64,000 nucleotides of DNA. Origin: an uncultured Algibacter sp. GTDB taxonomy: Bacteria > Bacteroidota > Bacteroidia > Flavobacteriales > Flavobacteriaceae. Positions 3,278 through 26,414 of this stretch are shown here, piece by piece. The stretch is from assembly GCA_947502405.1 (NCBI GenBank), contig CANMZT010000017.1:1-64000 (forward strand), read 5' to 3'. Each line of letters starts with the position of its first letter. Position 1 is the first letter of the stretch. The position numbers and the translations under genes are program-made. The notes below the pieces were generated by a model that saw only the letters and a program-made list of their open reading frames with translations, was not told the DNA's origin and did not search any database.

Positions 3278-4642
3278 TTAAATAGTCATAGAGAATAACT
3301 GAGTATTTGGTTGTTTTCTCTGTAGTAACACATCAAACGCCATACATATATTCCTAATAAATGGTTGACCTTTTTTTGTTACTTCAATAGTATTGGAATG
3401 CATATGAAGCAACCCATCCTTTTCCATTTCTTTTAACTTAATTAGTGTATCTGGCAACTCCTTAAAATAGAGATAATCCTTTGTCCAGGTTGTTTTAAAT
3501 TGGCACATTAAGTTTAAGATATGCTTACGAATAATTAAATCTTCTTCATTTAAAATGTGTCCTCTGTACACGGGAATAGTATTAGATTGCAACTGACTGT
3601 AATAGCTTTTAATATCCTTTACATTCTGAGCAAATCCGTACCAACTATCGCTAATAGACGAGACGCCTAAACCTATCATAGCTTTTGTTTTTGAAGCGGT
3701 ATACCCCATAAAGTTGCGGTGTAATTTACCATTAACCATAGACTCATAAAGGCTATCTGTGGTTAATGCAAAATGATCCATCCCTATTTCGTTATATCCA
3801 ACTTCTGCTAGTAATGTTTTACCTAACTCGTACTGTCTTCTTTTTAATTCTGCTGAAGGCAAATCAGAATCATTAAACCCTCGTTGACCATTACCCTTTA
3901 TCCATGGTACATGTGCGTAACTGTAAAATGCCAACCGGTCTGGTAATAATTCTTTTGTTTTTAAAATAGTTTCTTTTACGTGCGCTAGGGTTTGAAATGG
4001 TAACCCAAAAATAATATCGTGTCCTACAGAGGTGTACCCTATTTCTCGCGCTAGTTCTGTAGCTTTCTTAACATTTTCAAAAGGTTGGATTCTATGAATC
4101 GCTTTTTGTACTCTTGGATTATAATCCTGCACGCCATAACTCACACGTTTAAAACCTACCTCAAATAAAGCTTCCAGATGCTCTCGCGTGGTATTATTTG
4201 GATGCCCTTCAAAACTAAACTCATATCCTACTGCCAATTCTGCATCTTTTAAAATTTCAAGAATGAGGTGTTTTAAATTCTCTGGACTAAAAAATGTTGG
4301 AGTTCCGCCTCCAAGATGTAATTCTTTTATAATAGGTTTTTCATCAAACAACTCTAAATATAGTTGCCACTCTTTTAAAACCGCTTTAATATATGGCAGC
4401 TCCACCGTGTGTTGCTTTGTTATGCGTTTATTACAACCGCAAAATGTGCAAAGGCTTTCGCAAAAGGGCAAATGGATATACAAACTTATACCTTCATTCG
4501 AGTTACTTTCGTTAAAAGATTTTATCAAAGAGGTTTTCCATTTTTCTAAAGAAAATGTCTCTTGATTCCAATACGGAACCGTTGGATAACTCGTATAACG
4601 AGGCCCTGCAATATTGTATTTATTGACTATTGATTTTAACAT
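3278..4642 (-). CDS. hemN: Oxygen-independent coproporphyrinogen III oxidase (radical SAM)
   Basis: The enzyme converts coproporphyrinogen III to protoporphyrinogen IX without O2 in haem synthesis. The radical-SAM cluster motif is HLPFCESLCTFCGC (CxxxCxxC, near residue 60), and the SAM-binding GGGTPTF motif follows. The N-terminal KYNIAGPRYTSYP segment is typical of true HemN rather than HemW-like proteins, and the length (454 aa) matches. A TTG nine bases upstream would add MLG, but the ATG giving MLKSIVNKYN fits the family better. A TAATTTTG -7 box and a Crp/Fnr-like palindrome lie upstream at class-II spacing, so low-oxygen induction is inferred. sodC is divergent; the universal stress gene is downstream. 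Confidence 0.95.
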   Translation of the reverse strand: MLKSIVNKYNIAGPRYTSYPTVPYWNQETFSLEKWKTSLIKSFNESNSNEGISLYIHLPFCESLCTFCGCNKRITKQHTVELPYIKAVLKEWQLYLELFDEKPIIKELHLGGGTPTFFSPENLKHLILEILKDAELAVGYEFSFEGHPNNTTREHLEALFEVGFKRVSYGVQDYNPRVQKAIHRIQPFENVKKATELAREIGYTSVGHDIIFGLPFQTLAHVKETILKTKELLPDRLAFYSYAHVPWIKGNGQRGFNDSDLPSAELKRRQYELGKTLLAEVGYNEIGMDHFALTTDSLYESMVNGKLHRNFMGYTASKTKAMIGLGVSSISDSWYGFAQNVKDIKSYYSQLQSNTIPVYRGHILNEEDLIIRKHILNLMCQFKTTWTKDYLYFKELPDTLIKLKEMEKDGLLHMHSNTIEVTKKGQPFIRNICMAFDVLLQRKQPNTQLFSMTI

Positions 4643-4659
4643 ACCTAACAATTATGATT

Positions 4660-4667
4660 CAAAATTA
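4660..4667 (-). promoter_or_regulatory. hemN -7 promoter element (TAATTTTG)
   Basis: Read on the minus strand this is TAATTTTG, an exact match to the Bacteroidota -7 consensus TAnnTTTG. It would place the transcription start around 4656, about 14 nt before the hemN ATG. The palindrome at 4689-4704 is then centred about 41 nt upstream of the start. Confidence 0.6.
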
Positions 4668-4688
4668 AGGGAATATGCTGCTAAAAAA

Positions 4689-4704
4689 TATGATATATGT
4701 CATA
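4689..4704. promoter_or_regulatory. Crp/Fnr-like operator upstream of hemN and sodC
   Basis: TATGATATATGTCATA has inverted 5-nt arms (TATGA/TCATA) and the TGA-N6-TCA core of Fnr/Crp-family sites. The minus-strand tonB site at 26399-26414 matches it at 15 of 16 positions, and a third variant precedes the Fe-alcohol dehydrogenase gene. The gap to the hemN -7 box is 21 nt. The site also lies upstream of the divergent sodC promoter. The regulator is not in this window. Confidence 0.6.
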
Positions 4705-4712
4705 GCTAAGAC

Positions 4713-4743
4713 TTGCAATTTGTTTAATTAAGCCTTAACTTTC
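4713..4743 (+). promoter_or_regulatory. Putative sodC promoter
   Basis: A TTG (4713-4715) is followed after 20 nt by TAACTTTC (4736-4743), seven of eight matches to TAnnTTTG. The start would be about 20 nt upstream of the sodC ATG. This is a consensus match only. Confidence 0.4.
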
Positions 4744-4766: not shown

Positions 4767-5336
4767 ATGAAAAAATTAAGTATACTATTATTTGCCATAG
4801 CTATAAGCTTTACATCTTGTAAAAAAGAAAAAAAAGAAGCTAAAACTGTTGAGAGTGAAGTTACAGAAACTGCTGTTGTAACTCCTAAAAAAGTCAAAAT
4901 AGCTTTGAATTCTAAAAGTGATAGTAATGTTACTGGGAATGTTGTTTTTAAAGAAGTTGATGGTGAAGTTAGTATGACTGCTATTATTAGTGGTTTATCT
5001 GCTGGACAACATGCTATACATATTCATGCCTCTTCTGATTGTTCTTCTCCAGATGGAAAATCTGCAGGCGGGCACTGGAACCCTACATCGCAACCTCATG
5101 GGAAATGGGGCGCAGAAACTGGCTACCATAAAGGAGATATTGGCAACTTTACCGCAGATGAAAAAGGCAATGGAACCATTTCATTTACTACTGACGAATG
5201 GTGTATAGGCTGTGGAGATGATACTAAAGATATTTTAGGAAAAGCGGTAATCGTTCATGCTGGTGAAGATGACTTAACATCACAACCTTCTGGTGCAGCA
5301 GGTGCTCGTGTTAGTTGTGCTGGTATAATACAGTAA
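4767..5336 (+). CDS. sodC: Superoxide dismutase [Cu-Zn], lipoprotein
   Basis: This periplasmic or surface-exposed Cu/Zn superoxide dismutase dismutes superoxide to H2O2 and O2. A lipobox (SFTSC, Cys18) implies lipid anchoring, followed by a Lys/Glu-rich linker. Metal ligands are readable: His85 and His87 (HAIHIHASSDC), bridging His102, His110, His120 and Asp123 (YHKGDIGNF), and a late VHAGEDD histidine. The disulphide cysteines are Cys92 and the C-terminal Cys in RVSCAG. Its length is normal for bacterial SodC with an extra linker. An unusual extra WCIGCGDD segment adds two cysteines near residue 150. It is divergent from hemN and followed after 44 nt by the ECF sigma gene. Confidence 0.93.
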   Translation: MKKLSILLFAIAISFTSCKKEKKEAKTVESEVTETAVVTPKKVKIALNSKSDSNVTGNVVFKEVDGEVSMTAIISGLSAGQHAIHIHASSDCSSPDGKSAGGHWNPTSQPHGKWGAETGYHKGDIGNFTADEKGNGTISFTTDEWCIGCGDDTKDILGKAVIVHAGEDDLTSQPSGAAGARVSCAGIIQ

Positions 5337-25579: not shown

Positions 25580-26356
25580 TCAACCTTCTTGAAACTTGAA
25601 GAATATGGGTACAGCATAAGCCACTTTTACAGGTTTACCTCGCTGCTTACCAGGTTTCATTTTTGGTAATTTACTTATTATCCGTTCTGCTTCTTTTTGA
25701 AGAATTTTATCTGGCCCCCTTGATCGGATACCTGTAATATGTCCGTTCTTATCAATAACAAATACAACTGAGACACGTCCTTGAATACCTAAATCTAAAG
25801 CCGTTTGCGGGTAAGTAAAATTATTAGCTACATGCTCTTGTATTTTCTTTTGAAAACAATCTTTTGTTGCTTTTTTAGATAAGTTTTCACAACCCGGAAA
25901 TACAGGTACATCTTCTATTATTGCAAATGCTACTTGTACATCCTCATCTATTTCCTCTACTTCAACATCGCTAACCTCAACAATACGTTCTTCAACAGCA
26001 TCGTCCTGCCCTATTTCTGTGCTTTCAATAACGGTTTCTTCAATTTCCTCTACATCATCTACAATTTGTATAGATTCTTGAACAACAGCAGGCGGTGGTG
26101 GTGGCGGTGGTGTATTAGCATTCATTATGGGAATTTCTTCCTCAAACTCCCCTTCCATCTCTATAAGGTCTAGAACCACATCATCTTTTTCATAAGTTCT
26201 GTATTCCAGAGCTCTCCAAGATAAAAGTAACATCAAGTTTAATCCAATAGCGAAATAAATGCCGCTATTTCTTCCTATTTCCAAATTTGGATTTTTTTTA
26301 GCTTCCATGACACTTCGTTTTAAACTGATGAGATTATTATCATATAAACTCATCAT
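25580..26356 (-). CDS. tonB: Energy transducer TonB
   Basis: This 258-residue protein transmits proton-motive force to outer-membrane receptors. It has an N-terminal membrane helix (about 30-47, GIYFAIGLNLMLLLSWRAL), a proline run (NTPPPPPPPAVV) and an acidic Glu/Val-rich periplasmic spacer. A C-terminal TonB domain follows (PQTALDLGIQGRVSVVFVID to VAYAVPIFFKF). Related proteins start at MEAKKNP, 16 residues further in (26308), so the true start is uncertain. A palindrome matching the hemN operator and a TAACTTTA box lie upstream with the same 21-nt gap. ExbB/ExbD are not in the window. Confidence 0.9.
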   Translation of the reverse strand: MMSLYDNNLISLKRSVMEAKKNPNLEIGRNSGIYFAIGLNLMLLLSWRALEYRTYEKDDVVLDLIEMEGEFEEEIPIMNANTPPPPPPPAVVQESIQIVDDVEEIEETVIESTEIGQDDAVEERIVEVSDVEVEEIDEDVQVAFAIIEDVPVFPGCENLSKKATKDCFQKKIQEHVANNFTYPQTALDLGIQGRVSVVFVIDKNGHITGIRSRGPDKILQKEAERIISKLPKMKPGKQRGKPVKVAYAVPIFFKFQEG

Positions 26357-26398: not shown

Positions 26399-26414
26399 TA
26401 TGACATTTATCATA
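26399..26414. promoter_or_regulatory. Crp/Fnr-like operator upstream of tonB
   Basis: On the minus strand this reads TATGATAAATGTCATA, one mismatch from the hemN site at 4689-4704. The arms TATGA/TCATA are perfect. The position relative to the -7 box suggests activation. Confidence 0.55.

Follow-up and report, generated by a model that had tools for sequence, protein, structure and literature searches.

The question raised by this locus is how hemN, a gene for an oxygen-independent haem enzyme, is switched on in an uncultured Algibacter sp., and which regulator reads the 16-mer palindrome, TATGATATATGTCATA, that precedes it in the 64,000-nt stretch of contig analysed here (the window). To our knowledge, activator-dependent promoters have been little described in Bacteroidetes, the sigma factor of which uses an unusual -7 box. 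The original prediction had placed the palindrome exactly 21 nt from such a box, at the position of a class-II activator, and had named an Fnr-like protein as the activator. Palindrome and box were found again at the coordinates given in Table 1. Thus, reading along the minus strand, TATGACATATATCATA is followed by 21 nt, the box TAATTTTG, 17 nt and the hemN start codon at 4642, where the alignment of hemN with its relatives also begins. The encoded protein scored 444 bits against TIGR00538 (cut-off 325) and contained a CxxxCxxCxC motif, the cysteines of which (C61, C65, C68 and C70) were invariant among 14 aligned sequences.

The main text of PMC9723704 places the TAnnTTTG box of Flavobacterium psychrophilum sigma-A promoters at -12 to -5, and with the box of the window set at these positions the dyad of the palindrome would lie at -41.5 from a start at 4655. 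A class-II location, with a dyad at about -41.5 from this predicted start, is indicated by the spacing of 21 nt kept in relatives, by the published position of the box and by the dyad seen when hemN promoters of relatives were aligned on the box alone. This alignment was usable for 79 of 103 sequences (the other 24 had no exact box 10–60 nt before the start codon) and was not conditioned on the palindrome; the table of half-site columns is conditioned on matching rows. In the box-only alignment the dyad emerged at -42/-41, in agreement with the predicted class-II position, together with a T-rich segment at -33 to -30 and a spacer that was unconserved from about -27 to -13. The T-rich segment, TTTT, was considered as a possible upstream promoter element.

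Table 1. Positions in the window of the hemN promoter, its neighbouring genes and a second copy of the palindrome.
Feature	Position	Strand	Remarks
Palindromic operator (predicted), TATGACATATATCATA	4689–4704	-	Dyad at -41.5 from inferred start; position kept before hemN in relatives
21-nt spacer	4668–4688	-	Initial 4 nt, at about -33 to -30 and mostly T, kept in relatives, most of the remainder not
-7 box, TAATTTTG	4660–4667	-	Fits flavobacterial TAnnTTTG
Inferred transcription start (+1)	4655	-	Set from the box position of -12 to -5 in the main text of PMC9723704
hemN, oxygen-independent coproporphyrinogen III oxidase, 454 aa	3278–4642	-	NCBIfam TIGR00538
sodC, Cu/Zn superoxide dismutase lipoprotein gene	4767–5336	+	PF00080; divergent; left outside the module
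Second palindrome copy, TATGATAAATGTCATA	26399–26414	-	21 nt from TAACTTTA; before a tonB-like gene (25580–26356)

Conservation of the arrangement was examined in 149 genomes of the same family, which represent nearly one genome per genus. Of these, 103 had a hemN match, the own genome included; two of the matches were distant (34–37% identical) and one contained internal stops. The core TGAYN4RTCA was present in 86 of the 103 upstream regions (300 nt), and in 77 TAnnTTTG followed at a distance of exactly 21 nt, measured from the end of the 16-mer, so that the conservation anticipated for flavobacterial hemN promoters was borne out. When spacings from 0 to 60 were scanned, the only other pair of core and box was one at 22 nt. 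Allowing one mismatch over core and box added the module to 9 more genomes and left 17 without it. After dinucleotide shuffling (100 shuffles), an average of 1.83 of 103 sequences (maximum 6) contained the core, and none had it at 21 nt. A harder control, consisting of 300-nt windows taken from other parts of these loci, outside the hemN promoter, contained the core in 238 of 4943 cases and the full module in 69 (1.4%), a rate that overstates the background because these loci include other true targets such as ccoN/cbb3 sites. Among the best 80 of at least 584 confirmed hemN loci from named genomes, 68 carried the strict module, 2 carried it with one mismatch and 10 were without it (four Aquimarina, two Capnocytophaga, one Mesonia, two bins and one record titled Acinetobacter). 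The hemN product of this last record (Acinetobacter sp. ANC 4558, L300) was 69% identical to the protein of the window, which would be consistent with either transfer or a mixed assembly.

Counts of the palindrome by itself were not above chance, with 16 matches of up to three mismatches in the window compared to 13.1 expected, and 49 + 35 matches of up to two mismatches in the whole genome compared to 44 + 45 for the reversed control; therefore, no argument was built on them. The result was different for palindrome, spacing and box taken together. Thus, TGAYN4RTCA-N22..24-TANNTTTG matched 10 places in the own genome (eight with 21 nt and two with 22 nt between palindrome and box) and none in the control, and TATGAYN4RTCATA-N20..22-TANNTTTG was found in 82 of the 149 family genomes while the control was found in none of the 149. 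A looser pattern, TGAYN4RTCAT-N21..23-TANNTTTG, matched 91 of 247 genomes of the phylum as opposed to 20 of 247 for its reversed control. By rank, these matches included 27 of 27 genomes of the family (the own genome included), 3 of 3 from the rest of the order, 23 of 31 from the rest of the class, mostly with 1–5 places each, and 38 of 186 from elsewhere in the phylum. The module is thus densest in the family and order and thins outward, and the combination of palindrome, spacing and box is not due to chance. That the palindrome arose fortuitously in AT-rich DNA, as the lack of enrichment of the mismatch-tolerant palindrome in window and genome might suggest, is exceedingly improbable given its fixed spacing and its conservation in relatives.

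The palindrome also faces sodC, and a weaker box, TAACTTTC (4736–4743, plus strand), lies 31 nt from it on that side, a distance greater by one helical turn than that of the hemN box; the same 31-nt spacing was present in the one same-genus genome compared. Regulation of sodC from this site was considered and found to be unsupported, and a palindrome that serves sodC is very improbable, since it is on the hemN side that relatives keep the 21-nt spacing.

The identity of other genes behind the module bears on its likely function. In the own genome, sites were found before a 61-aa open reading frame followed by ccoN/O (NF011053, 1343 bits, cut-off 1080), before a P-type ATPase gene beside ccoN/O that is referred to as ccoI-like (one mismatch in the box), before pta for phosphate acetyltransferase (903 bits, cut-off 418), before pflB for pyruvate formate-lyase (682 bits at a locus that is cut, below the cut-off of 994), before moeA for a MoeA-like protein (336 of 440 bits, spacing 22) and, at 21 nt, before a gene for a Crp/Fnr paralogue, L027; the remaining sites precede genes of no assigned role. 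Together, hemN, cbb3, pflB, pta and moeA make up a typical low-oxygen gene set. Similar results were obtained with relatives. Thus, the module was present at 21 nt in 47 of 51 upstream regions of ccoI (1 strict, 46 with one mismatch, which fell on the first box position in the 44 regions displayed) and in 25 of 26 upstream regions of ccoN (14 strict, 11 with one mismatch). A scan restricted to spacings of 20 to 22 nt gave 277 distinct sites, of which 266 had a spacing of 21 nt; at 21 sites no reading frame followed. When the downstream genes were clustered, hemN formed the largest group (128), ahead of genes for a universal-stress protein (36) and for a cytochrome c lipoprotein (27) and of ccoN (15), the second and third of these named from Pfam matches of one example each; the counts are not regulon sizes, as loci were gathered partly by hemN and motif searches. 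The second copy of the palindrome in the window (Table 1) was of narrower distribution. Among 30 loci of tonB-like homologues examined, the own locus included, out of a larger number, 6 had the palindrome with one mismatch in the box, and 2 of the other 24 had the palindrome with two box mismatches; this site is treated as a lineage-level target. The position of the palindrome before hemN and its conservation in relatives make it very probable that it truly acts as a switch for low oxygen.

A cNMP-binding domain was matched at eight places in the own genome. The best candidate for the regulator was a 225-aa Crp/Fnr protein encoded on contig C4 (L030, 7091–7768, minus strand) by a gene divergent from the ccoI-like gene, with a palindrome of this type in the shared intergenic region. 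Both PF00027 and PF13545 exceeded their cut-offs, which identifies a cNMP-binding fold and a Crp-type helix-turn-helix, and a fold search gave as best match 2gau, the structure of a Crp/Fnr protein of P. gingivalis, with several CRP/GlxR structures ranked above holo-Fnr. Matches to the candidate at E<=1e-40 were found in 91 of 149 genomes, and C4, C7, C53 and C106 were invariant in 15 aligned orthologues. The cluster cysteines of Fnr are C20, C23, C29 and C122 (E. coli numbers). Three of the candidate's cysteines (C4, C7 and C106) aligned with cysteines of A. fischeri Fnr, N13 occupied the position of the third (C29), and C53 was an additional invariant cysteine. A structure model of the candidate had pLDDT below 50 at residues 1–7 and hence was not used for placing cysteines. 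Of the residues in the recognition helix, E191 and R195 aligned with Glu and Arg of Fnr and I194 with its Ser, which presumably reads the first base of TTGAT and in place of which isoleucine would, we assume, fit A or C. The NCBIfam model for Fnr was not reached by the candidate (96.7 bits, cut-off 228). The part of the original prediction that called for an Fnr-like activator is thus favoured by a Crp/Fnr gene with Fnr-like cysteines that adjoins cbb3 genes bearing the site, while Fnr proper is not, for the half-site is [AC]TGAY rather than TTGAT, the model score is low and one Fnr cysteine is absent. The supported reading is that of an Fnr-like class-II operator for hemN, refined by this half-site, the atypical set of cysteines and, as described below, a second possible reader. 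Crp homologues of one Flavobacteriales bin are treated as MalR-like in the relevant passage of PMC8510549.

Within one mismatch, the 21-nt module was present in just 4 of 59 upstream regions of the candidate gene itself. At three loci (L113, L118 and L213) the palindrome lay approximately 42–45 nt before the start codon of the regulator gene without a box at 21 nt, an arrangement that could represent an autorepression site. Two further Fnr-like paralogues are encoded in tandem on contig C11 of the own genome (L024, L027, L222), and it is before L027 that the 21-nt site noted above is located.

A different Crp/Fnr paralogue, either L024 or L027 on contig C11 or else L023, might read the class-II site here, alone or in a cascade. 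L024 is 54–55% identical to the candidate with residues that match C4, C7, C53 and C106, and because of the site before L027 the L024/L027 cluster may itself be a target. This reading is nonetheless distinctly unlikely, as the profile of the widespread group, which includes the candidate, gave 406.8 bits for the candidate, 332.5 for L024 and 201.3 for L027, and as it is the candidate that is encoded beside the ccoI and ccoN sites. We also consider it unlikely that the regulator responds to nitric oxide, redox state or another ligand instead of oxygen, a possibility to which the absence of the third Fnr cysteine and the site before a copper nitrite reductase gene of one relative (L254) both point. 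The four invariant cysteines of the candidate argue for oxygen, as does the presence of hemN, cbb3 oxidase, pflB and pta among the genes behind the site; moreover, the main text of PMC9723704 reports strong induction of the cbb3 oxidase and induction of haem-biosynthesis enzymes in F. psychrophilum under oxygen limitation, with no mention there of Crp, Fnr, hemN or a palindrome. Among the papers covered by our search, judged by titles and abstract openings and with most subscription papers outside it, no description of the hemN site was found.

The reading that we prefer, and that we hold to be probable as a whole, is that of a class-II operator from which a Crp/Fnr activator at -41.5 would control a low-oxygen switch of hemN, cbb3 and fermentation genes, with the 225-aa Fnr-like protein as the activator. 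Thus, a dimeric member of the Crp/Fnr family would bind the palindrome, centred on its dyad, and stand adjacent to RNA polymerase positioned at the TAnnTTTG box, so that scarcity of oxygen would turn on hemN along with the genes for cbb3 oxidase and fermentation. The activator in this genome would most likely be the protein encoded divergently from ccoI, and oxygen would probably be sensed by an iron-sulphur cluster on C4, C7 and C106, possibly also C53.

The occurrence of the site in relatives suggests that the orthologue of this protein is not the sole possible reader. A second type of protein, of approximately 350 aa and with receiver, cNMP-binding and helix-turn-helix domains (PF00072, PF00027 and PF13545 in the two tested), was matched at E<=1e-70 in 65 of the 149 genomes and gave no match in the own genome of the window at this threshold. 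At seven loci inspected (L306, L308, L314, L320, L321, L326 and L328) the gene for this receiver-Crp fusion adjoined a gene with a histidine-kinase motif and had a universal-stress gene nearby, with 21-nt sites at several of them. Three of the seven neighbouring kinases were confirmed by Pfam. The PAS domain of the one kinase searched gave haem-PAS structures of FixL as best matches (1d06, E 7.3e-17), and its H64, which was invariant in six kinases, aligned with a FixL histidine that we take to be haem-related. Among the 103 hemN genomes, the site (strict or with one mismatch) was present in 34 of 43 that had only the orthologue, in 31 of 34 that had both proteins, in 21 of 23 that had only the receiver-Crp fusion and in 0 of 3 that had neither. 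Thus, of the 26 hemN genomes without the orthologue, 23 have the fusion, with the site retained in 21 of them, whereas 12 of 77 genomes with the orthologue (9 of the 43 that lack the fusion and 3 of the 34 that have it) are devoid of a 21-nt site within one mismatch. Persistence of the site without the orthologue where the fusion is present is suggestive rather than conclusive, the genomes being related and the class with neither regulator consisting of three. Among sites within one mismatch, the left half-site had C instead of A in 15 of the 21 genomes with the fusion only, in 14 of the 31 that contained both proteins and in 7 of the 34 in which only the orthologue occurred, a split for which kinship could be the explanation. 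Judged from these patterns in genomes, the conserved class-II low-oxygen promoter may be readable by two kinds of regulator, and in relatives a receiver-linked Crp protein may take the place of the Fnr-like one.

For the family as a whole, we tentatively suggest, as a serious possibility but not as our expectation, that Flavobacteriaceae use one fixed low-oxygen code, [AC]TGAY-N4-RTCAT-N21-TAnnTTTG, with two sensors, a solo Crp protein, the cysteine set of which (C4, C7, C53 and C106) is not that of Fnr, and a FixL-like haem-PAS kinase paired with a receiver-Crp protein that fuses FixJ and FixK, which would have been swapped between lineages without change of the promoter. The locus is well suited to the question of how one regulator can be exchanged for another at promoters that stay in place, and the fixed distance from operator to box across the family is a ready tool for predicting flavobacterial low-oxygen regulons.

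Compared with known systems, the arrangement resembles class-II promoters of Fnr in E. coli and A. fischeri in its two-fold site with a 4-bp centre, in a dyad at -41.5 and in hemN and pfl as targets, and the candidate resembles Fnr in three aligned cysteines and in the Glu and Arg of its recognition helix. The half-site of Fnr is TTGAT as opposed to [AC]TGAY here, where the -7 box is TAnnTTTG, and the candidate differs from Fnr by the missing third cysteine, the invariant C53 and the isoleucine in place of serine. Similarly, the receiver-Crp proteins of relatives resemble the rhizobial FixL-FixJ-FixK system in that a PAS kinase with a FixL-like sensor domain (in the one kinase tested) adjoins a protein that has both a receiver and a Crp-type DNA-binding domain. 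In contrast with that system, receiver and Crp parts form one protein in the relatives, so that a separate fixK step would be skipped, and the genome of the window gave no match to this protein at the E-value threshold used. The promoter itself is of the kind described in the main text of PMC9723704 for sigma-A promoters of F. psychrophilum, with TAnnTTTG at -12 to -5, and in that species cbb3 and haem genes are induced on oxygen limitation.
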